Source of the DNA: Acidaminobacter hydrogenoformans DSM 2784
GTDB lineage: Bacteria; Bacillota; Clostridia; Peptostreptococcales; Acidaminobacteraceae
DNA length: 64,000 bases
Assembly: GCF_900103005.1 (NCBI RefSeq)
Contig: NZ_FMWL01000015.1
Location: 1-64,000 of the forward strand
Direction of reading: 5' to 3'
How positions within the stretch are numbered: the first letter of the stretch is position 1; every line of letters starts with the position of its first letter. Shown here piece by piece: positions 14,751 to 64,000 of this stretch. Both the position numbers and the translations under genes were made by a program. Under the pieces are notes generated by a model. That model saw only the letters and a program-made list of their open reading frames with translations, did not search any database and was not told where the DNA came from.

Positions 14751-14769
14751 TTTATAAAATATATTATAT

Positions 14770-15079
14770 GCAATGAACGAGACCAGTAAGACCTCCCAAG
14801 CCATAGAGAGAGCAACCGGTTGGTGAAAGGTGCAGGACAGGCGGTACGAATACACTCGTGAGCAGATTCCCGAACATGGTCTGGAGCATTCCAGTACATT
14901 AGTAGGCGAATCCGGACAAGGTCCCCGTTATCAGGCCATGTATATTGTCCTTGCTTTGCATGAACATGGGGCATTATGCGCAGGAGGCCAGACTCCAAGG
15001 ATTCTGGCGAACAAAGGTGGTACCGCGGCATATAGCCGTCCTTTGAAACTTTTATAAGGTTTCAAGGGGCGGCTTTTTT
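14770..15079 (+). promoter_or_regulatory. T-box riboswitch, probable tyrosine specifier (UAC)
   Basis: Stem I landmarks run in order: AGTAAG, AGAGAGC, GGTTGGTG, then the specifier loop GAA-TAC-ACTCGTGAG with TAC at 14851-14853. The T-box bulge sequence AGGTGGTACCGCG follows at 15015-15027. The terminator is the hairpin GCCGTCCTTTGAAAC / GGTTTCAAGGGGCGGC plus TTTTTTA (15035-15079). Uncharged tRNA pairing at the specifier and at the TGGTACC bulge would stabilise the antiterminator. The specifier is assigned by position after GAA and before a purine. Stem I closes with AGACC / GGTCT. Confidence 0.9.
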
Positions 15080-15184: not shown

Positions 15185-16633
15185 ATGGCAAATGTCAAAT
15201 TTTTCAGCGGCGAACAAATTCCACTTGAAATGCACAAGGTCAGAATCATTCAGAAACTATTTCTTCCCGAAATCGATCAACGACTCCAAGCCATAACTGA
15301 GGCCGGCAACAACACCTTTCTCCTAAAAAACAGAGACGTCTTTTTGGACATGCTCACGGACAGTGGTGTCAACGCCATGAGCGACCGCCAGCAGGCTGCC
15401 ATGCTCCTGGCAGATGACAGCTACGCTGGCAGTGAAACCTACTTCCGTCTCGAAAACAAAGTCAAAGAAATCTTTGGGATGAATTATTTTCTCCCAACCC
15501 ACCAGGGACGCGCCTGCGAAAACATTATCTCTCAAGTGCTCGTCAAGCCGGGTACTATTGTTCCTATGAACTATCACTTCACAACGACCAAAGCGCATAT
15601 AGTTCTAAATGGTGGCGTTGTAGAAGAAATTTTCATGGATGAAGGCATAGAGGTCGACAGCACACATCCATTCAAAGGCAATATGGATCTTGATAAACTC
15701 AATAAGCTGATTGATGATAATGGCCCAGAAAAAATTGCCTTTGTCCGAATGGAAGCAGGTACAAACCTTATTGGCGGTCAGCCTTTTTCACTTGAAAACC
15801 TGACCGAGGTCAGCCAGATCTGCCGCAGCAGCAATATTCCGATGGTTCTGGACGCCAGCCTCTTGTCTGACAACCTCTATTTCATGAAAATCAGAGATGA
15901 GCAGTGCAAAGACATGAGCATCCATGAGATTACGCTCAAAATGGCTGAGCTCTGCGACATTGTTTATTTTTCAGCCAGAAAGCTCAGCTTCGCCCGTGGT
16001 GGCGGCATTGCCATCCATGACGAGAGCATGTACAAAAAATTTCAGGAGCTCATTCCACTTTACGAAGGCTTCCTGACCTATGGTGGTATGTCTGTGCGCG
16101 AAATGGAAGCCATGACCGTAGGACTCGATGAGACCATGGACATGGATATGATCAACCAGGGACCGCAGTTTATTGCCTATATGGTAGATGAGCTGGTCAA
16201 GAAAGGCATTCCGGTCGTCACACCTGCCGGTGGCCTGGGTTGTCATCTGGATGCCATGCGTTTCGTGTCACACATCCCTCAGAATGAATATCCAGCCGGG
16301 GCCCTCGCATCAGCCCTTTACCTCATCAGCGGCATCAGGGGGATGGAGCGCGGCACTATGTCAGAGCAGCGCAACCCGGATGGCAGCGAACCTTTGTCAG
16401 CCATGGAGCTCTTGAGACTCGCTATGCCAAGACGCGTTTATACCCTGTCCCAGGTCAAATATGCTCTGGACAGGATTCAGTGGTTGTATGAGAACCGCGC
16501 GCTGATTGGCGGCCTCAGATTTTACGAAGAGCCTAAGGTCCTGCGCTTCTTCTTTGGCAAGCTTGAGCCCGTCTCAGATTGGCAGGAGCGCCTCGTTGAG
16601 AAATTTAAGGCAGACTTTGGAGATAGCCTATAG
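15185..16633 (+). CDS. Tyrosine phenol-lyase-like beta-eliminating lyase (tryptophanase family)
   Basis: A 482-aa PLP enzyme of the TPL/TnaA family. Matches are GYNTFLL-like AGNNTFLL, DLLTDSG-like DMLTDSGVNAMSD, DDSYAGSE (Tyr71 of TPL), PTHQGRACEN, HFTTTKAH, the PLP Lys in SARKLSF, GIRGMERGTMS (the TPL-type MERG, not the TnaA-type VEIG) and LRLAMPRRVYT (Arg404 of TPL). It would split tyrosine to phenol, pyruvate and ammonia, or run in reverse. An oddity is that the usual DATR after the PLP-contacting Asp is DASL, losing Arg217. The preceding T-box implies control by tRNA charging. Another aromatic or beta-substituted amino acid remains possible. Confidence 0.75.
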   Translation: MANVKFFSGEQIPLEMHKVRIIQKLFLPEIDQRLQAITEAGNNTFLLKNRDVFLDMLTDSGVNAMSDRQQAAMLLADDSYAGSETYFRLENKVKEIFGMNYFLPTHQGRACENIISQVLVKPGTIVPMNYHFTTTKAHIVLNGGVVEEIFMDEGIEVDSTHPFKGNMDLDKLNKLIDDNGPEKIAFVRMEAGTNLIGGQPFSLENLTEVSQICRSSNIPMVLDASLLSDNLYFMKIRDEQCKDMSIHEITLKMAELCDIVYFSARKLSFARGGGIAIHDESMYKKFQELIPLYEGFLTYGGMSVREMEAMTVGLDETMDMDMINQGPQFIAYMVDELVKKGIPVVTPAGGLGCHLDAMRFVSHIPQNEYPAGALASALYLISGIRGMERGTMSEQRNPDGSEPLSAMELLRLAMPRRVYTLSQVKYALDRIQWLYENRALIGGLRFYEEPKVLRFFFGKLEPVSDWQERLVEKFKADFGDSL

Positions 16634-48952: not shown

Positions 48953-50995
48953 TTAGCTTGTTCTGGAGCGCGACATCATTCTCGTGACGCCGCCGCCATT
49001 TTCAACATCCGTATAGCCATAGTAGTTGAGAATCTGCGTCGCATAGGCACTTCGCGCACCCGTCGCACAGTAAAGGATTATTTTTCTGTTCTTATTTCCG
49101 AGCTCATGGATTCTATTCTGTATTTCGTCCAAAGGGATATTGATTGCGCCGGGAACCGCGCCGTAAGAAAATTCTTCATCCGAACGCACGTCTACAATTA
49201 AAGGCTCATTGGATGCTTCCTTTTTGGCATCCACTTTTGGAAGTTCACTTACTTTCGCTGTATTTGCAGCTTCAGTGACTTCTGCTTCGGAATTTTCGCC
49301 AATTTGCTTCGGATCCGGCGCCGGGAGGTCCAATTGGAAGGTTGACGGGGCGACTGCCCTGACATAGCCTGAAAGGCTTGAAAAACCTCCGCTGACATTG
49401 AATACGTTGGTAAAGCCTGCGCCTGTGAGGGTACGGAGCGCCTGATGGCCTTTCTTACCCGTTTGGTCGTAAACATAGATCCGCTTATTCTTTGGAAGCG
49501 CATTCAGCTTTGATGGAAGAAGCTCAAGCGGAATATTGACCGCGCCTGCAACATGAGATTTATTAAAGGCGAAAACATCCCTAACATCCAGCCAGAAGGC
49601 CTTTTCACTTTCTGGCGCGGCGTCCAGTTCAGAGATTGTAAGCGCAGGCGAGTAGCCGGAAATCCTGTTTTCTGCGACATAGGCCGCCATATTCATGGCG
49701 TCATTGGCAGTGCCAAGCGGTGGTGCATAGGCGAAATCCATGTCTGCAAGGTCAGAGACGGTCAGCTTTGCTGCCGCAGCAGCTGCCAAGACATCCAGCC
49801 TTCTGTCAGCGCCTGCGTAGCCCGCTGTCTGTCCGCCCAGTACGACGCCGGTCTCTCTGTCGTAAACGACCAGAACTGACACTTGCTCAGCGCCCGGATA
49901 ATAAGAGGTATGGTGCTCTTTATGAATCACAACCGCGTCCGCATTCAGCCCTGCAGCTCTGGCAGCTTTTAAGGAAAGACCTGTGGTTCCTGCTACCGCT
50001 TCAAAGACTCTGACAATGGAGGTGCCTATGGAGCCTTTGTATTCATGGCGTTTGCCTAAGGCATTTTCCGCCGCAATTCTGCCTTGGCGGTTGGCAGGTC
50101 CGGCAAGCGGGATGCGCACTTTCTTGCCATGCACCCGGTGCTCGAGCTCCACCATGTCCCCTGCCGCATAAATGTTGTCATCACTGGTTTTCAGCGTTTG
50201 ATCCACCAGCAGTCCGCCGGCATCACCTATAGCAAGGCCTGCATCTGCAGCAAGCTTTAATGTGGGACGTACACCAATGGAAAGCAGGACCAGATCCGCG
50301 TCCACACTGGCGCCATCCTTCAGGGTCACGTTGTTTCTTCCAATGGCGTCCACTGCTTTATTGGTCAGGACGTCCACACCGTAAGCGGTCATTTCTTCCT
50401 GTATAAATCCTGCGATTTCGGCTTCCATAATGGCCATGACATGCGGCATCATTTCGACCACAGAGACCTTCAGCCCTCTCTTGACAAGCGCTTCTGCCAT
50501 TTCGAGGCCAATAAACCCACCACCTACGACGACTGCGGTCTTGGGATTCTTATTTTCAATAAAGGTATGGATCTTGTCCATGTCCTCAAGGGTCCAGAGC
50601 TGGAAAACATGATCCTGGTCGGCACCTGGGATTGGTGGGGCAATAGGCTTTCCGCCCTGCGCCAGAATCAGCTTAGTATAATCAAAAGTCTTCTTCTCAC
50701 CGGTACGTGAATCGACTGTATGAACGACTTTGTTTTCTCTGTCAATCTCCGTGGCGGCTGTATGGATGTGAACCGCTGTCTGATATTGCTCATTAAAGCT
50801 TTCCGGGCTTTGAAGGATCAGCTTGGATCTGCTTTTAATGTCTCCGCCTATATAATAAGGAAGTCCGCAGTTCGCGAATGAAATATCCGGGCCGGACTCA
50901 AGAATTGTAATCTCAGCGTCTGATGAAATGCGTCTCGCTTTTGCAGCCGCGGTAGCGCCCGCTGCGACACCGCCAATAATAACTATTTTCTCCAT
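48953..50995 (-). CDS. CoA-disulfide reductase fused to two rhodanese domains
   Basis: The protein is about 680 aa. An FAD/NAD pyridine nucleotide-disulfide oxidoreductase (residues about 1-445) has IIGGVAAGATAAAKARR, the single redox Cys in SFANCGLPYYIGG, VVVGGGFIGLEMAE, and IYAAGDMVELEH. A first rhodanese domain (about 460-550) has YVYDQTGKKGHQ, lacking the catalytic Cys. After a linker rich in Glu/Ala a second rhodanese (about 590-680) has YCATGARSAYAT with the active Cys. It is likely to reduce CoA polysulfide/persulfide or disulfides. GGAGGAG supports the start. Its promoter carries a CsoR/CstR-like site. Confidence 0.88.
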   Translation of the reverse strand: MEKIVIIGGVAAGATAAAKARRISSDAEITILESGPDISFANCGLPYYIGGDIKSRSKLILQSPESFNEQYQTAVHIHTAATEIDRENKVVHTVDSRTGEKKTFDYTKLILAQGGKPIAPPIPGADQDHVFQLWTLEDMDKIHTFIENKNPKTAVVVGGGFIGLEMAEALVKRGLKVSVVEMMPHVMAIMEAEIAGFIQEEMTAYGVDVLTNKAVDAIGRNNVTLKDGASVDADLVLLSIGVRPTLKLAADAGLAIGDAGGLLVDQTLKTSDDNIYAAGDMVELEHRVHGKKVRIPLAGPANRQGRIAAENALGKRHEYKGSIGTSIVRVFEAVAGTTGLSLKAARAAGLNADAVVIHKEHHTSYYPGAEQVSVLVVYDRETGVVLGGQTAGYAGADRRLDVLAAAAAAKLTVSDLADMDFAYAPPLGTANDAMNMAAYVAENRISGYSPALTISELDAAPESEKAFWLDVRDVFAFNKSHVAGAVNIPLELLPSKLNALPKNKRIYVYDQTGKKGHQALRTLTGAGFTNVFNVSGGFSSLSGYVRAVAPSTFQLDLPAPDPKQIGENSEAEVTEAANTAKVSELPKVDAKKEASNEPLIVDVRSDEEFSYGAVPGAINIPLDEIQNRIHELGNKNRKIILYCATGARSAYATQILNYYGYTDVENGGGVTRMMSRSRTS

Positions 50996-51060
50996 GTTGA
51001 TCTCCTCCATAATTAAAAAATCATATTGATAGCAGCTGGTGGCATCTCTCACAGCGCTAT

Positions 51061-53883: not shown

Positions 53884-54345
53884 CTACAGCGCATCTATGA
53901 GTTCGAGCAGTTCAGCCGTCTCAGGAATATCACTCATGGCGTGCCCATAGTGGACGTATCTGAGAATCCCTTTTTGATCCACCAGCATCTGGGCAGGCAT
54001 TCTCCCGAGCTTGAACAAGTTGACCTTCTGCCCATATAATTTCAGGACGGAGAGCGTGTCATCAGGTATGCCGTAAAACTTCAGCGCGTTCTCTTCGAAG
54101 TATTTCCTGAAGGCCTTCGGGTTTTCGGGGCCAATGACGACAATTTTGGTATTCTTTTCTTCAAATTTCTCATAGTTTTGACGCAACTGCGCCATGTGCT
54201 TTTGGCAGAACGGTCAAACAAAGCCTCGGTTCAGCACAATCAAGACATTGCTCTTTCCTTGAAAATCAGACAGCTTGAATAAATCGCCTTTGTAATCATC
54301 CATTTGAAAATCTGGTGCCTCTTTGTTTAACGCAACACTGGACAT
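53884..54345 (-). CDS. Redoxin (peroxiredoxin-like) selenoprotein with in-frame UGA
   Basis: A 153-aa AhpC/TSA-type redoxin read through a TGA at 54214-54216, residue 44. Upstream the frame gives APDFQMDDYKGDLFKLSDF and VLIVLNRGFV; after TGA the same frame continues PFCQKHMAQLRQ and on to the family C-terminus. The active site is therefore Sec-Pro-Phe-Cys in place of the CPxC of relatives. No frameshift or other lesion is present. A stem CTGC...GCAG with a loop starting AAAAG follows the TGA by about 6 nt and could be the bacterial SECIS. AAGGAG supports the ATG at 54345. It would reduce peroxides. Confidence 0.85.
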
Positions 54346-54488
54346 GGCTTCAGCTCCTTCTGTAAGATATAGATTTAAAATCAATTTCTTGCCATTTGGC
54401 CACGGTTTCCTATTATAAGATACCGCTCTCCTTATATAAATTCCGCTTTGCAAAATAATTCAAACAACTATTTTGGTAAATTGAAAAC

Positions 54489-55906: not shown

Positions 55907-58900
55907 TTACACAAAGCGCCGCTCAGCAGGATTGGTCTCACCCATCAAGACTTCCACTTGATGCGTTCTTTTGTCATTCATCAGAGAAATTGAAAGCGCC
56001 GCCTGGAGCTCACCATCAACGATCACTCTCAGGACGCCCTTGCTTATGCCCTCTGGATTCTTTACTTCTATCTCATAGACCGTTTCCATATAACTGTAAC
56101 GGATGGCAAAAGAGGTCCACTTTTCAGGTATAGTTGGATCAAGGATCAATTTGTCCCCTTGCTTATTAAAGCCAAGAATATTTTCCAGTCCAGCTTTGTA
56201 CATCCAGCCAGCGGCGCCTGTATACCAAGTCCAGCCGCCCCTTCCAACGTGGGGTGGCTCTCCGTAGACATCGGCAGCCATCACATAAGGCTCGACTTTG
56301 TAAATCCAAGACTCCCTGTGGGTTCGCGCATGGTTGATTGGGTTGAGCATCCGGAAGCAATCCCAGGCCTTGTTGCCGTCACCCAGTTTTGAGAATGCCA
56401 CCACAGCCCAGGCTGCTGCGTGTGTATACTGCCCGCCATTTTCACGAACCCCTGGAAGGTAGCCTTTTATATAGCCCGGATCCAAAGTGCCCTCCGTAAA
56501 AGGTGGGGTTAGAAGTTTTATGATGCCCTCTTCACCCATCATCAGATAATTTTCCAGGGCTTGCATTGCTTTTGCCGCTCTTTTGGGATCAGCCGCTCCT
56601 GAAATCGCAGACCAGGTTTGTGCCAAGGAATCAATTTTGCATTCATTGTTGTAAGAAGATCCCAACGGTGTTCCGTCATCAAAATAAGCCCTTCTGTACC
56701 AGTCTCCATCCCAACCATGGGTTTCAACCGCGTCTGCGACTTTTACAGCCAGCAGCGCTAACTCATCCGCACGAACTTCATCCCCCATTTCACGGCAAAT
56801 CGGTATGAACTTCTGTAATGTCGCGTATAAAAACCAGCTCAGCCAAATACTCTCGCCTTTCCCCTCTGTGCCTATATGGTTCATTCCGTCGTTCCAGTCA
56901 CCGCCACGAATCAGGGCAAGACCGTGTTCCCCAAACCGGAGCGCGTTGTCCAAAGAGCGCATGCAATGGTCATAGAGGTCGTAAGTTTCCAATGAAACTT
57001 TGGGCTGGCAGTAGCGATCCTCTTCATTTTCTTTTAAGGGTTCCTCCTGCATATAAGGTGCCTGGCTGTTCAAAATGTCAACATCACCCGTGACTCTAAT
57101 ATATTCTGCAGTCACATAAGGCAGCCACAAGTAATCGTCTGATATTCGCGTCCGGGTTCCCTTACCGGTAGGCTCGTGCCACCAGTGCAGGGCGTCACCC
57201 TCTTCAAATTGATGGCCAGCGTGTTTTATGATCTGTGCCCTGGTTAAGGCTGGCCACGTGGCAGCCAAAGATAAACTATCCTGTAGCTGGTCCCGGAAGC
57301 CGTATGCCCCGCCCGCCTGATAAAAGCCTGAGCGGGCCCACATCCTGCAGGAAATGACCTGATACTGAAGCCATCCGTTGAGCAGGATATTCATGGACGG
57401 GTCCGGCGTTTCCACTTTGACGACCTGCAGTTTATTTTTCCAAAAAAGTTCAACCTCTGCTAATGCATCCTTTGCCTGCTGAATCGTCTTAAAGCGACTT
57501 GCCAGTTCAAGGGCCTCCACCTGACTGTCAGCCATACCCATTATAAATAATATCTCTTTGGTCTCCATAGCTCCAAGGCTGACTTTTACCTGCATTGCCC
57601 CGCAGGGATCATAGCCAGAACCTGTGGTTCCTGACAATGCACTGTGCTTCAATGCTTCTGGGGAATCCATTCCACCGCGGCCAAAGAATTCTTTTCTATC
57701 ACCCGTCACGGTCCGCGCCTTTATAGAGGCATCCATAAAACAAACCTTGTCCGCAAATTCCCTGTTATAAGGGTTCTCTATCATCAGAGTGCCGTCTTCC
57801 GTTTGAGAACTGACCACATGCATCCCGGTTTCGCTCATGCTGACGCCTAAAATTGGGGTCATATAATACGTCAGCGTCAGATTTTTGTTTTCCTGGCTAA
57901 TGTTTCGCAAACTGATTTTGCTGATTTTTACCGTGCCCTTAACCGGGACAAACTGAACAAGCTCTTGTTCAATCCCATGGCTTTGATGGTGGAAGCTTGT
58001 ATAGCCAAAACCATGCTCTATGGTATAGGGTTCTTCTTCCCTTACAGGCAGTGGTGTCATGGACCAAAGCGTTCCGTCATCATCACTGATATAAAATATT
58101 TCTCCAGGCTCGTCTCCAACAGAATCGTTTGACCACTTGGACAATTTGTTTTCTCTGCTGTTCTCACACCAGGTATACCCGCCTCCAGACTCTGATACTA
58201 TAAATCCAAAATTGGGATTCGCAATGACGTTTACCCACGGCGCCGGTGTTGCCATGCTTTTTTCAAGGGTGATGACATAGCTTTTTCCATTTTTGCCAAA
58301 GCCGCCAAATCCATTGAAAAACTGAAGCGCCTTTTGTTCCTCTTCCGAATGTTTTAATAAAGGTCCACGCTCGCGGATTACATTTTGGAAAGCTTCTGAA
58401 ATTTCGCTTTGAGCGACGATTTGAGTCATAGACTCAGTCTCAGCATCAGTCTCAGCACGAATCTCAGCGCGAGCCACAAACTGATCTGTCTGCACTGCAG
58501 CGTCAGCGCTGGCTTCAGGTACACTCGCACTGTACTGCGCTTCCATAGTGCCGCAGCCGCCCTCGAAAATCATCTTCGCACAGGCAAAGAACAGATTGAC
58601 TTCCGGTGACGTCATGGTGCTGGTTTTCAAAATGAAGACATCCTGGTGACGATTCATGGCATCCTGAGTCTGCATATTGTAGACAATTTCCGTGATTAAT
58701 GAAAACAGCGGATTGTTGTAACTGTTTTCCTCCTGGCTTAAAATCACCAGATCTACCTTGAGATTTTTCAAACGCCAGTACTCATGGGCTTTAAGGAGCT
58801 CAAATAGAAGCTCCATCTCATCGACCTTATCCAGGGATAGGAGAACAATTGGCCGGTCACCTGAAATGCCGTACTGCCAGAAGGTTTGCTGGCCTTTTCG

Positions 58901-61900
58901 ATTATCTTTGATCTGCTGCGCATACTTTCTCCTCTGAGGACTGATAAACAGGATGTCAGAGATCAAATCCTGATAGAATTCCAAATCACTCGCTTTGATG
59001 TTCAGATACTTGGTTTCCACCTGGCTTCTGGTGACGGCCAGCCAAAAAGCCGTGTCGCACGCTTCAACATTATTGTATTTTTCCACCAGTTCCATGACGG
59101 AGGCTTTGCTTTCAGCCGCTGCTGTGACAAAGAACAAGCGCGCTGTATTCCCGGGTTCCACCCGCACCTTCATTCTCATGCTGAAGATGGGATCCAGGAC
59201 CGACCCAACGGTATTTGACAAAGGTTTTCCCCGTTCAATGCTCTCGGGATTTGCGGACGTACGGCCTCTGCCAATAAACTGCGCACGGTCCGTTTCATAC
59301 TCAATGGCGCCGGCTGCCGCGCCCTCAATGACCGGTACCCCAGCCACCCAGCGTTTCTTGTCAAATTGGTGCCTTGTTCGACGATTCGCAAGCAATGCGT
59401 TGTTTTTGGGGTCAAATGAAGTGCTTACAAAAAGATTGCTGAACGTAGGATGTGCCAAATCGCTGCTTTGGGTTGCCGCAACGACTTCAAAATAACTGGT
59501 GACCTGGAGCGTACAGGCTGATACACCATTATTGACCAGTTTAATACGCCTGATCTCAGCCTGATCACCGGATGCAACAACGACTTCCATCATAGTTTCA
59601 ATGTCGCCGTCGGTTCGTTTATAGGCAGCTTTATCTGCAGTAAACACAACTTCATAGTTTTCAGGCATAATATTAAGCGGTGCATAAGCAGCAGACCATT
59701 TATGGTTATCATCCAGATTTTCAATATAGAAGAAGGTTCCGTAGCTGTCTGCGATGGGATCTTCCCGCCATCTTGATATGGCGACTTCTCTGGTTCTGCT
59801 GTAACCCGTGCCTTTATCCGTCAAGCTGACAAAGTACTTGCCATTGGATAAGACATGAACTTTAGGACGCTCAAAATCTATGGCGGTAAACCGCCTGTAA
59901 GAGCCTTTGTCGCTGTAGGCAGCCCCTGTGGATGTAGGGATTTTTTCCTTGCTGTCTTTTGTGAAAACTATATTCAGAGGTACCTTTTCCTGCAGCAGCA
60001 GTCTTGCCGCTCTCACATGGGGATCTATCGCGAATCTGTGTTGCAGGATGTTGTCGTTCAGATAATTGTTGATCGCCATCAGGCTCATTCCTTGATGGTG
60101 CGCCATATAGCTTTTGATGACTATATTTTTGGCTTGCGGTTCCAGTCGTTCCGGCGTATAGTCTGCCGCTTCATAAAAACCATAATCACTCTCAAGGCCT
60201 TCTATTTTCAGCCTTTTGATGTTGCTGTACGCTGCTCCAGGGTCTACCATCAGCGCAAGGAAGGTCGCGTAAGGCGCAACAACAGCATCCTCCGCCAAAC
60301 CTCGTTTCAATCCAAGCCACGGCACACCTATAGCTTTATACTGATAGTTCAAGTTTATATCCAGTGCGTGATAAGCAGACTCAGATGTCCCCCAAGGCAT
60401 TTCTCTTTGTTTGCCATATTTGATCTGGCTTTTCACAACAAAGGAATAGGTTTCGTCCAAAAGTGTATTTTTATAGCTTCTCATCAGTAAAAGCGGCATG
60501 AGATATTCAAACATGGTCCCACTCCAGGAAACCAGCCCTTTGAAACGATCCACCACGGTCAGTGACCTGCCCAGCATAAACCAGTGCTTTGGCGGAATTT
60601 CCCCCCGGGCAATCGCAAGATAGCTGGTTTGTCTGGCCTCTGATGCGAGAAGGTCATAATAGGAGTTCGTTGGCTCTTTTTCTTCCAAATCGTAGCCAAT
60701 GTAAAAAAGATGTCTTCTTTCGTTATAGAGCGACGCAAATTTTGTGTTCATAGAAAGCTCTGTAATTATTTGAATCAAGCGATCATATTGTTCAATAAAC
60801 TTCGTTGAAAATTGAACGGCGTTTTCTGCGGCTTCTTTTAACTGATTCAACCAAGCCATTTCTGCTTCAAGAGCTCCGTTGGCTGTTTCTTGCAGTTCCA
60901 GAGTCAAAGCATCACATTGATTTGAAAGGCTCTTACTTAGCACCGGAAGTTTTTCCAGATCAACATTTGTTTTCATAAGCCCAAATAGGGCATTGAATTT
61001 TTCCTTCTGTGCATCGTTAACAGTCACACCAGGTTCGATTAATGCCATTTCGACCCAAGGCATGAAGCTCTTAACTTCCTGCTTCAATTTTTTTATAATG
61101 CGCTCGTATTTGGCGTTCCATTCTTTTTTCATGAAGGTTGAAAGGGCTGAAAGATTTGAATCTTCAGCCAAGCCGTTCAGCGCCTTGCTCCAGGCCATGG
61201 GATCGAGCACTTCCGGCGTTTCTGAAAGGGTGTGGGGTATCGCAGCCATCGGCATAAGCGCTCCCGCTTTGAGGCCGGCACGGATTGTATCGTTGATCCC
61301 ATTGACGTATGCCGTATCCACAAGCGGTTTCCCATAATACCCCTTTAGGCCCTGCACCAGAGTGGTCAGGTAGCAAATCAGATTTCCGCTGTCTACGGTG
61401 GACACATAAATTGGGTGGAGCGGCTCCAGGTTGCTGGTGTCATACCAGTTATACAAGTGTCCGTTCCATTTTTCCATATTTCCGATGGTCGTGATGGTCC
61501 TCGAAATATGCGCTTCCAGTTCAATCAGCCCAATATACCCCATGTCTTTTGCGGTCAACGAAGCCATGAGCCCAAGCCCAATGTTTGTCGGAGACGTCTT
61601 TTGCGCAATGCCGCTGTAGGGCTCTTCCTGATAATTGTCCGGTGCAAGGTAATTATTTTTTTGATTCGCGAATTCTTCGAAATACCGCCAAGTTTTTCTC
61701 GCTATGGTCCGAAGCTCCAGCAAAGCTTCCGCCTCCAGCATTTCTGTTTTCCCGGGATCGTCTCTGCTGATCAGATAAGCGATGACAGGCGAAAGCAGCC
61801 AGGCAATGAGCAACACAGCGCTGATTTTTATGCTCTCAGGCTTTAAAAGGAATGAAAGCGCTGCAATGGCCACGCCTGCAATAACACTTAGACCCATAGT

Positions 61901-64000
61901 CCCAACATAACTTTTAAGAGAATTTGGCTGGGTATTATCTGAATCTGAAGACGTCACCCATTCGAGCATATTTTTCTTTGTGATGAAGACGCGCTTCAGC
62001 GTAACGACAATTGCATCCAATGCCATGAAAGCTTGATAAGGCAGAAAGACTATCCCAAGAAGGAATTGGAAAATCGAAGCCTTTATGCCAAAAAAACCGG
62101 GAAGATGTCGTTTAATGCTGTCTCTTTTGAGCCCATTGCTGAAAATCTGGGTTAATAATGTGATCGCCAGTGGGAGTCCCATGGAGGTAATGCCCAGACC
62201 AGCCCAGAAAACGCCTGAACCCGGCAATATACTGAAGCCTAAGGCTATCAGCAGCATAACAACCGGTGTCAATAGACTTCTTCTAAGGTTATCAATCATT
62301 TTCCATTTGGCAACATGGGATAATGGATTCCGAATCATTTTATCATTCTTTGTTCGAATGCCGCCGAACAGCCAAGGTACAAGCTGCCAGTCCCCGCGAA
62401 TCCATCTATGAAGCCTCGCCACAAAAGAGTTGAACTTTGACGGATATGCGTCCACCAGTTCCAGATCCGAAACTAACGCTGCCCTCACAAATGAACCTTC
62501 AAGCAGGTCATGACTCAGGATTGCGTTCTCAGGCAATTTCCCTTTTAAAACTTTTTGAAAAACCTTTAGATCGTAGATGCCTTTTCCAGTAAAAATGCCT
62601 TCGCCAAAAAGATCCTGATAGACGTCAGAAATAGCGCTGGCATAGGGATCCAGGCCTTCTTGCCCCGTATAGATCCTTGAAAATATGGACCTGTTTGAGC
62701 TGTCGCTGTCAAAGGAGACTCTTGGCTGAATCAAACCATAGCCCTGCGTGACAATCCCCTTCACCATGTCAATGACTGGCTTATTGAGTGGGTGTGCCAT
62801 GGTTCCAATCATTTTTTTAACCATGCCAAGAGGCAAAACGGTATCAGCATCCAGTGTTATAACATATTGAATATTTTCATCCGGTAAGAATTCGTTGGAA
62901 AAAAAAGAAAAACTGGTAGTCTCTGAACCAAGCAGCAACTCGTTAAACTCCATCAAAGCGCCTCTTTTTCGTTCCCAACCAGTCCAATTATTATCCAGTT
63001 CATTGAATGTCCTCTGCCTGTTATAGAAATAAAATATGTCTTTTTTCCCTTCAGCATACTTGTGATTCAGCGCCACAATCCTGTCTGAGGCTTCTTGAAT
63101 AACGCGCTTATCCTCTTTGTTGTTCTCGAAATCCGAATCTTTAAATGCGCCAATCAAGGCAAAATGCAAATTCGTCTCTTTGTTCCCCAAGTAATGGTTC
63201 TCCATGTTCTCCATCAGTTCATTGACGCGTTTTGTGTCAGAAAGCAGCGCCGGGATCACGACCATGGCACTCATGCTGTCCGGTATTCCGTCTTTAAGCG
63301 CCAGGCGCGGGAATACCGCAGGTTTTTTTATTCTGCATACAAACCAGTTGGTCACTGAAATGACTATTTCGGAAACGGGAATGATCACGACTATTCCCAC
63401 TAATAAAGCGAGAGAAATTTTCTGCGAAGGCACGAGACTCATGGCATAGACGACCGTCAGCAGACTGAGAATCACTGTCAATGAGACAATTGATATCATG
63501 TAGATCATGCCTTGATGCAGCTTTATCGCTTTCTTGATTTTCACAGACAGACTTCTATTTTCCTGTTGCCTGTTCTCCAGAGCTTTTCGACCGTCATCCA
63601 CTATATAATAGCCAATGTGATGTCTGCGGTTCCGCAGATTTTCATCCTCAGCATCTATAGGCGCAGACGACATTGCTTCCTGCGCAAGAAATAAAGCTTC
63701 CTTTGCAATGTAAAGCTCTGACGCGCCATAGGCCTTGGCGATCTCTTCCACCTTGTTTTTGTAATAGAATCTGGATTGAATGTCCATAAGGCTGTAAGTG
63801 TCTAACGGGTCTTGCCTGAGAATTTTCTCCAAACTGCTGGCTTCGTCGTATAAGTCCGTCCAGTTCATACTTGAGAGATGTTTGAGACTGACTATACAGT
63901 TTCCCATGGAAGCCGTACTAACAGCTTGGGCATTGTGCTCTTTTTGAGCAATGATTTCTGTTGTCGTATCAAATTTGTCGAGGCTTTCATCAATGTATCT
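55907..64000 (-). CDS. Cyclic beta-1,2-glucan synthase (NdvB/Cgs type), 5' end outside window
   Basis: The frame is open to the window edge: 2697 codons are visible with no stop, so the gene starts beyond 64000. The N-terminal helical region (VSLKHLSSMNWTDLYDEAS...) is followed by TM segments and the GT84 glycosyltransferase core with ITLDADTVLPLG and RLHRWIRGDWQLVPW. More TM segments then follow. The large C-terminal half holds two GH94-like phosphorylase/carbohydrate-binding modules with GDWNDGMNHIG and YLPGVRENGGQYTHAAAW. It makes cyclic beta-1,2-glucan from UDP-glucose at the membrane. An insertion rich in Ala/Glu/Thr (AEIRAETDAETES) interrupts the C-terminal part. Confidence 0.92.
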   Translation of the reverse strand, partial: RYIDESLDKFDTTTEIIAQKEHNAQAVSTASMGNCIVSLKHLSSMNWTDLYDEASSLEKILRQDPLDTYSLMDIQSRFYYKNKVEEIAKAYGASELYIAKEALFLAQEAMSSAPIDAEDENLRNRRHHIGYYIVDDGRKALENRQQENRSLSVKIKKAIKLHQGMIYMISIVSLTVILSLLTVVYAMSLVPSQKISLALLVGIVVIIPVSEIVISVTNWFVCRIKKPAVFPRLALKDGIPDSMSAMVVIPALLSDTKRVNELMENMENHYLGNKETNLHFALIGAFKDSDFENNKEDKRVIQEASDRIVALNHKYAEGKKDIFYFYNRQRTFNELDNNWTGWERKRGALMEFNELLLGSETTSFSFFSNEFLPDENIQYVITLDADTVLPLGMVKKMIGTMAHPLNKPVIDMVKGIVTQGYGLIQPRVSFDSDSSNRSIFSRIYTGQEGLDPYASAISDVYQDLFGEGIFTGKGIYDLKVFQKVLKGKLPENAILSHDLLEGSFVRAALVSDLELVDAYPSKFNSFVARLHRWIRGDWQLVPWLFGGIRTKNDKMIRNPLSHVAKWKMIDNLRRSLLTPVVMLLIALGFSILPGSGVFWAGLGITSMGLPLAITLLTQIFSNGLKRDSIKRHLPGFFGIKASIFQFLLGIVFLPYQAFMALDAIVVTLKRVFITKKNMLEWVTSSDSDNTQPNSLKSYVGTMGLSVIAGVAIAALSFLLKPESIKISAVLLIAWLLSPVIAYLISRDDPGKTEMLEAEALLELRTIARKTWRYFEEFANQKNNYLAPDNYQEEPYSGIAQKTSPTNIGLGLMASLTAKDMGYIGLIELEAHISRTITTIGNMEKWNGHLYNWYDTSNLEPLHPIYVSTVDSGNLICYLTTLVQGLKGYYGKPLVDTAYVNGINDTIRAGLKAGALMPMAAIPHTLSETPEVLDPMAWSKALNGLAEDSNLSALSTFMKKEWNAKYERIIKKLKQEVKSFMPWVEMALIEPGVTVNDAQKEKFNALFGLMKTNVDLEKLPVLSKSLSNQCDALTLELQETANGALEAEMAWLNQLKEAAENAVQFSTKFIEQYDRLIQIITELSMNTKFASLYNERRHLFYIGYDLEEKEPTNSYYDLLASEARQTSYLAIARGEIPPKHWFMLGRSLTVVDRFKGLVSWSGTMFEYLMPLLLMRSYKNTLLDETYSFVVKSQIKYGKQREMPWGTSESAYHALDINLNYQYKAIGVPWLGLKRGLAEDAVVAPYATFLALMVDPGAAYSNIKRLKIEGLESDYGFYEAADYTPERLEPQAKNIVIKSYMAHHQGMSLMAINNYLNDNILQHRFAIDPHVRAARLLLQEKVPLNIVFTKDSKEKIPTSTGAAYSDKGSYRRFTAIDFERPKVHVLSNGKYFVSLTDKGTGYSRTREVAISRWREDPIADSYGTFFYIENLDDNHKWSAAYAPLNIMPENYEVVFTADKAAYKRTDGDIETMMEVVVASGDQAEIRRIKLVNNGVSACTLQVTSYFEVVAATQSSDLAHPTFSNLFVSTSFDPKNNALLANRRTRHQFDKKRWVAGVPVIEGAAAGAIEYETDRAQFIGRGRTSANPESIERGKPLSNTVGSVLDPIFSMRMKVRVEPGNTARLFFVTAAAESKASVMELVEKYNNVEACDTAFWLAVTRSQVETKYLNIKASDLEFYQDLISDILFISPQRRKYAQQIKDNRKGQQTFWQYGISGDRPIVLLSLDKVDEMELLFELLKAHEYWRLKNLKVDLVILSQEENSYNNPLFSLITEIVYNMQTQDAMNRHQDVFILKTSTMTSPEVNLFFACAKMIFEGGCGTMEAQYSASVPEASADAAVQTDQFVARAEIRAETDAETESMTQIVAQSEISEAFQNVIRERGPLLKHSEEEQKALQFFNGFGGFGKNGKSYVITLEKSMATPAPWVNVIANPNFGFIVSESGGGYTWCENSRENKLSKWSNDSVGDEPGEIFYISDDDGTLWSMTPLPVREEEPYTIEHGFGYTSFHHQSHGIEQELVQFVPVKGTVKISKISLRNISQENKNLTLTYYMTPILGVSMSETGMHVVSSQTEDGTLMIENPYNREFADKVCFMDASIKARTVTGDRKEFFGRGGMDSPEALKHSALSGTTGSGYDPCGAMQVKVSLGAMETKEILFIMGMADSQVEALELASRFKTIQQAKDALAEVELFWKNKLQVVKVETPDPSMNILLNGWLQYQVISCRMWARSGFYQAGGAYGFRDQLQDSLSLAATWPALTRAQIIKHAGHQFEEGDALHWWHEPTGKGTRTRISDDYLWLPYVTAEYIRVTGDVDILNSQAPYMQEEPLKENEEDRYCQPKVSLETYDLYDHCMRSLDNALRFGEHGLALIRGGDWNDGMNHIGTEGKGESIWLSWFLYATLQKFIPICREMGDEVRADELALLAVKVADAVETHGWDGDWYRRAYFDDGTPLGSSYNNECKIDSLAQTWSAISGAADPKRAAKAMQALENYLMMGEEGIIKLLTPPFTEGTLDPGYIKGYLPGVRENGGQYTHAAAWAVVAFSKLGDGNKAWDCFRMLNPINHARTHRESWIYKVEPYVMAADVYGEPPHVGRGGWTWYTGAAGWMYKAGLENILGFNKQGDKLILDPTIPEKWTSFAIRYSYMETVYEIEVKNPEGISKGVLRVIVDGELQAALSISLMNDKRTHQVEVLMGETNPAERRFV

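Follow-up and report, generated by a model that had tools for sequence, protein, structure and literature searches.

The window, by which we mean the whole 64,000-nucleotide stretch of Acidaminobacter hydrogenoformans DSM 2784 DNA that was analysed, contains on its minus strand a redoxin gene whose frame runs from an ATG at 54345 to a TAG stop at 53886-53884 and is interrupted by a sole in-frame TGA (54216-54214). The locus comprises the following features:

54354-54359, minus strand: ribosome-binding site AAGGAG, 8 nt 5' of the ATG
53884-54345, minus strand: peroxiredoxin (Prx)-like redoxin gene, a putative selenoprotein gene of 153 codons with ATG start, TAG stop and UPFC motif
54214-54216, minus strand: TGA codon 44, probable selenocysteine (Sec) codon, conserved in homologues
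54205-54207, minus strand: TGC codon for Cys47, the U-x-x-C partner of Sec44, present in 22/22 alignment rows
54179-54194, minus strand: SECIS-type hairpin with a 6-bp stem, whose loop (AGUU) opens 25 nt 3' of the UGA, from comparative RNA analysis

With the TGA read through, the product has 153 residues and the motif N-R-G-F-V-U-P-F-C (U44-P-F-C47), and a Pfam match to AhpC-TSA (PF00578; residues 7-131, 76.4 bits against a cut-off of 26) extends across the TGA, the domain starting almost where the frame does. A first-pass annotation, which gave no strand, had described this TGA as lying within an otherwise intact redoxin frame with family-typical sequence beyond it, had placed the good ribosome site solely before the first half, and had predicted that standard gene callers would split the gene; each of these observations holds. 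The domain match crosses the TGA and the codon is shared by homologues (see below), inspection of the sequence upstream of the second half's inner ATG at 54195 found no AAGGAG-type ribosome site, and table 11 ORF calling yields two ORFs, 54214-54453 and 53884-54195.

A scan of named genomes returned 23 loci, with matches that run from residue 1 to residue 151-153, ranging in identity from 82% (an Acidaminobacter MAG) to 50% (a Desulfobacteraceae MAG), with Clostridium, Mesobacillus, Anaerolineaceae, KSB1 and Desulfobacteraceae among their titles. All 23 carry TGA at the motif, and its recurrence at the same place argues that it is not there by chance; two of these genes have other defects, a frameshift before the TGA in L032 and an extra stop at codon 112 in L022. 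Four profile searches of whole genomes with the 22-row homologue alignment (61, 398, 395 and 400 genomes) brought the family to at least 96 distinct genes, of which 91 have TGA and five have TGC (Cys) at the motif, four of the latter in genome G564 and one in G1105. These counts depend on a family line of E <= 2e-36 that was set after the lists were seen, with weaker rows dropped (those examined include PrxQ with TPGC, ResA with CPYC, CPLC proteins and other UxxC proteins), and they are lower bounds, at most nine candidates per genome having been scored in the 398-, 395- and 400-genome searches. The window gene is counted once, the split gene L091/L095 counts as one TGA gene, and five genes with a second stop besides the TGA (L044, L056, L065, L068 and L138) are retained. 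Because stops were read through, Cys forms were at no disadvantage in these searches, and the family appears to be nearly Sec-locked, with Sec seldom replaced by Cys (91 of at least 96 genes have the Sec codon). The first-pass annotation had suggested that homologues with Cys might expose this gene as decayed; such homologues turn out to be rare.

The part of the gene after the TGA is also under purifying selection, as indicated there by low dN relative to dS between the window gene and L011 (dN 0.089, dS 1.03), between L026 and L028 (0.073 and 0.55) and between L014 and L016 (0.0075 and 0.17); in three further pairs the stretch beyond the TGA has a saturated dS.

The genome (3.6 Mb, 41 contigs) encodes the decoding machinery that the first-pass annotation had named as the thing to look for. 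A 16-kb stretch (L010) carries a tRNA-Sec gene with anticodon TCA as well as consecutive selD, selA and selB, whose products exceed their NCBIfam cut-offs (SelA 631.5 against 267.9 bits, SelB 381.1 against 242.25, SelD 378.2 against 125), and a search of the window's own genome gave SelA at 543 bits. Once read upstream of its called start, selD (L010:11438-12541, minus strand) shows a TGA within SGUAAK and is thus a selenoprotein gene, this TGA presumably marking the site of the catalytic Cys/Sec of SelD; in the table 11 ORF list selD begins after its own TGA. The genome has further Sec genes in that two grdA genes hold one TGA each. Among the homologue genomes SelA is present in 22 of 23, the one miss being that of L026, a 1.6-Mb MAG.

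It had also been proposed that the 40 nt after the TGA be folded in search of a bacterial SECIS element. Folding the single sequence beyond or around the UGA gave nothing that stood out (z = -0.36 for 41 nt, -0.13 for 51, +1.10 for 71 and +1.19 for 91), and the hairpin emerged from homologue comparison, longer single sequences folding no better than shuffles. Where ten sequences were set against codon-preserving shuffles, an equally stable hairpin arose in 11 of 500 shuffles of the window gene, and four sequences of the MMQLH type gave 65-94 such shuffles out of 500. In the comparative analysis (23 sequences, 22 distinct) the stem pairs in 95.5% of cells, as against 17-67% when it is slid by 1-3 columns, and its covariation score exceeds that of all 500 shuffles; two of the five hairpin measures are not above shuffles, each being reached by 185 of 500. 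The stem co-varies with the protein, MMQLH being written with ATG and CAT and MAQLR, in most rows, with GCG and CGT or CGC. Codon choice within it is fixed for Gln53 (CAG, 22/22), Leu54 (TTG, 22/22) and His55 (CAT, 16/16), while elsewhere each of the remaining conserved Leu columns is written with four to six codons, both Gln codons occur in the two remaining invariant Gln columns, and His codons vary. Among 91 distinct 60-nt TGA-region sequences, pooled from named and unnamed loci with three far relatives left out, all six pairs are found in 63 and fewer than five in 13. The bacterial SECIS rule, as worded in the relevant passage of PMC13188914, calls for a small apical loop with a G within its first two positions, 16-37 nt from the UGA, with which the window hairpin agrees in both loop (AGUU) and distance (25 nt). 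We therefore regard the hairpin, on comparative grounds, as conserved at the RNA level and as fitting the published bacterial rule. A second small hairpin suggested by RNAalifold (columns 13-15 with 21-23) was dropped, its pairs never or hardly varying. Seven of eight distant relatives that lack Cys47 (L084-L090 and L093, all but L086) have fewer than five hairpin pairs at the standard place.

The sel machinery, the conserved TGA and the SECIS-type hairpin together give strong support to the claim that the UGA is read as Sec, and we consider it nearly certain that codon 44 specifies Sec in an enzyme of the Prx-like UxxC class described below.

The position of this residue in the active site differs from that first proposed, which was the peroxidatic Cys. 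In the alignment Sec44 falls on the Ser/Thr of the TxxC of Bcp/PrxQ, and Cys47 on the peroxidatic Cys. The canonical peroxiredoxin active site is PxxxT/SxxC with the peroxidatic Cys, a pattern that is absent from the window protein, whose N-R-G-F-V-U-P-F-C stretch has no PxxxT. The Sec form of that motif is given as PxxxTxxU in the selenoprotein literature. The residue opposite Sec44 in ResA is the first Cys of CxxC, and in a glutathione peroxidase encoded at L032:4413-4955 it is the catalytic Cys. The predicted structure (pLDDT 87.8, pTM 0.86) places residue 44 directly before helix 45-56; its best solved structures are Bcp4, AhpE and Bcp1 (Z 20.1-20.5, 140-144 residues), with ResA also listed (Foldseek), and the closest solved-structure match by sequence is ResA 4nmu. 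The 22-row homologue alignment shows an invariant Cys47 and a conserved MPAQ stretch, which we take to occupy the place of the thioredoxin cis-Pro. In the distant subgroup comprising L084-L090 and L093, Sec44 is kept and Cys47 is changed to Ala, Thr or Ser; because it is retained where Cys47 is lost, Sec44 looks like the indispensable residue of the pair.

Proteins of this description have been catalogued. The Sargasso Sea paper (PMC1088965) describes a family of Prx-like selenoproteins in which a thioredoxin-like UXXC replaces TXXU, 'Prx-like thiol:disulfide oxidoreductase, PF00578, UxxC/UxxU' is an entry among the predicted selenoproteins of PMC13188914 and PMC9312934, with WP_010940744.1 as the listed representative, and counts for the class are also given in PMC1794560 and PMC2398784. 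As characterised in those entries, the class shares with the window protein PF00578, Sec in UxxC, a SECIS element directly after the UGA and an occurrence in Sec-decoding anaerobes, a likeness judged by label and motif. By these marks the window protein fits the known Prx-like UxxC label and very probably belongs to an already catalogued class. Its best NCBIfam match is NF040769 (SelL-related redox protein), which all 22 alignment members match at E <= 0.001 and whose cut-off the window protein does not reach (81.7 against 120 bits, model positions 1-99 of 173). PrxU, the Sec-peroxiredoxin with TxxU, is likewise a selenoprotein of AhpC-TSA fold, but there Sec takes the place of the peroxidatic Cys of TxxC, whereas the Sec of the window protein lies three residues earlier, and the PrxU model NF040737 is far from its cut-off (20.9 against 270 bits). 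Glutathione peroxidases have the same register as the window protein, with Sec or Cys in N-x4-U/C, yet the window protein scores below the PF00255 cut-off (14.7 against 27 bits) and has UxxC where the motif comparison in PMC1088965 gives them UxxT.

Evidence on function comes from the genes around the homologues. We surveyed ORFs of 80 aa or longer lying up to 3.5 kb from each Sec gene, a scheme that smaller intervening genes escape, and found that an OhrR-type (MarR-type) gene adjoins the Sec gene, or is one gene away, in 10 of the 23 named loci; the other 13 have no OhrR neighbour, and four of the 23 have fewer than 600 bases upstream. The OhrR-type gene is directly upstream in L012, L013, L014, L016, L025 and L028, is convergent with the Sec gene in L021, and is separated from it by one gene in L026, L029 and L032, the intervening gene being what we take to be nitroreductase-like in the first two and the above glutathione peroxidase in the third. 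The assignment of these neighbours by structure and NCBIfam model rests on one member, that of L032, for which the best structure is 1z91 (organic hydroperoxide resistance regulator, E 1.1e-39) followed by OhrR 2pfb, and the best NCBIfam model is OhrR, at 174 bits below its cut-off of 200. This protein contains LENQLCF, the Cys of which presumably stands at the sensing-Cys position of OhrR. A search of the 23 genomes for OhrR-like genes (E <= 1e-25), with a query taken from one of the ten neighbours, returned 16 genes spread over 15 genomes, and the ten closest, each at least 61% identical to that query, coincide with the ten neighbours, one per genome. No OhrR gene adjoins the window gene, and the closest OhrR-like match that its genome offers shows 30% identity. 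The genes that flank it each turn up in fewer than three of the 23 surveyed loci, and of four flanking proteins that were scanned, two matched nothing in Pfam. Two genes downstream from the redoxin, the minus strand encodes (48953-51052) a pyridine nucleotide-disulfide oxidoreductase that includes two rhodanese stretches; we entertained it as a partner and rejected it, since it is not a conserved neighbour.

OhrR and Ohr form a known organic hydroperoxide resistance pair in which Ohr is the usual target of OhrR. The present loci resemble that pair in having an OhrR-type gene beside the Sec gene (10/23), and differ in that the gene under OhrR control would encode a Sec redoxin and not the OsmC-fold Ohr. 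None of the ten OhrR-paired genomes has an Ohr (TIGR03561) above cut-off, that of L012 having a sub-cut-off match, and across all 24 genomes one does, namely that of L015, whose Sec gene has no OhrR neighbour and whose Ohr match contains an in-frame TAA. Ohr is thus missing from 23 of 24 genomes, the ten paired ones plus 13 of the 14 others, and since this absence is general in the set it cannot alone link OhrR with the Sec gene; we dropped it as support for the pairing, with which it is compatible. A literature search at the level of listings and abstract openings did not find a pairing of OhrR with a selenoprotein redoxin in print, and OhrR linkage is absent from those portions of PMC1088965, PMC1794560, PMC9312934 and PMC13188914 that describe the Prx-like UxxC class.

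From the OhrR-type neighbours in 10 of 23 loci we infer a Sec-dependent organic hydroperoxide reductase, and we regard a hydroperoxide role for the Sec redoxin as probable. The same active site could nevertheless belong to a general thiol:disulfide oxidoreductase of ResA/TlpA-like type that is not a peroxidase, as is suggested by the literature name 'Prx-like thiol:disulfide oxidoreductase' and by the thioredoxin-like UXXC of the family as introduced in PMC1088965. The UxxC in place of TxxC, the alignment of Sec44 with the first Cys of the ResA motif, the sequence match to 4nmu, and the MPAQ stretch, given its presumed cis-Pro place, are all in keeping with such an enzyme. They have to be weighed against the OhrR-type neighbours and the glutathione peroxidase gene lying between the two genes in L032, against the alignment of Sec44 with the glutathione peroxidase catalytic residue, and against the subgroup that keeps Sec44 and loses Cys47. 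ResA, moreover, is membrane-anchored, unlike the window protein, whose frame opens directly with the domain. On this balance we hold a general oxidoreductase to be credible though somewhat improbable.

Two further alternatives concern the codon itself and are both exceedingly improbable. A nonsense mutation in a decayed gene, or two separate genes, would give the two ORFs that a standard caller sees, but sits poorly with a TGA kept by all 23 named homologues, whose titles range from Clostridium and Mesobacillus to Anaerolineaceae, KSB1 and Desulfobacteraceae, with the low dN after it, with a second half that has no ribosome site and with the presence of the sel machinery. Reading of the UGA as another amino acid, e.g. 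Trp through a changed code or a suppressor tRNA, found nothing in its favour beyond the open frame, and is opposed by Cys (TGC) in the five family genes without TGA, by alignment of the position with a catalytic Cys, by the tRNA-Sec (TCA anticodon) and SelB, and by the TGA codons of GrdA and SelD.

Our preferred reading, to which we assign a probability of roughly 0.6, is that the window gene encodes a Sec-decoded Prx-like UxxC enzyme most likely acting on (organic) hydroperoxides. A thioredoxin-fold protein of 153 residues would be made by decoding the UGA at codon 44 as Sec with SelB and tRNA-Sec, probably guided by the in-frame hairpin 25 nt downstream. Sec44, as a selenolate at the N-terminal end of helix 45-56, would attack the substrate, for which the OhrR neighbours in related species make an (organic) hydroperoxide the most likely class; oxidised Sec44 would then be joined to Cys47 as a selenenylsulfide, which a reductant of thioredoxin type may reduce again. 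More tentatively, and at slightly less than even odds, we suggest that in some Sec-decoding Bacillota OhrR has swapped Ohr for a Sec redoxin, moving organic hydroperoxide defence to a selenoenzyme of peroxiredoxin-like fold whose peroxidatic Sec takes the glutathione-peroxidase register, with the window gene as a family member that has no OhrR neighbour. The locus supplies an almost certain selenoprotein whose gene would be broken into two pieces by standard gene calling, and the pairing in ten related loci offers a testable physiological role for selenoproteins that the lists give as predicted.

Elsewhere in the window, a mechanical scan for more single-TGA frames returned nothing trustworthy, under rules that also miss the Sec redoxin gene. 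The minus strand at the window start (1-286) carries pieces of a group II intron (Rfam RF02001, 151.7 bits, with RF01998 at the edge), and a T-box leader (RF00230, 101.7 bits; 14764-15046, plus strand) precedes the ORF at 15185-16633. A minus-strand ORF of 2666 residues at 55907-63907 has glucoamylase and GH94 domains and resembles cyclic beta-glucan synthases.
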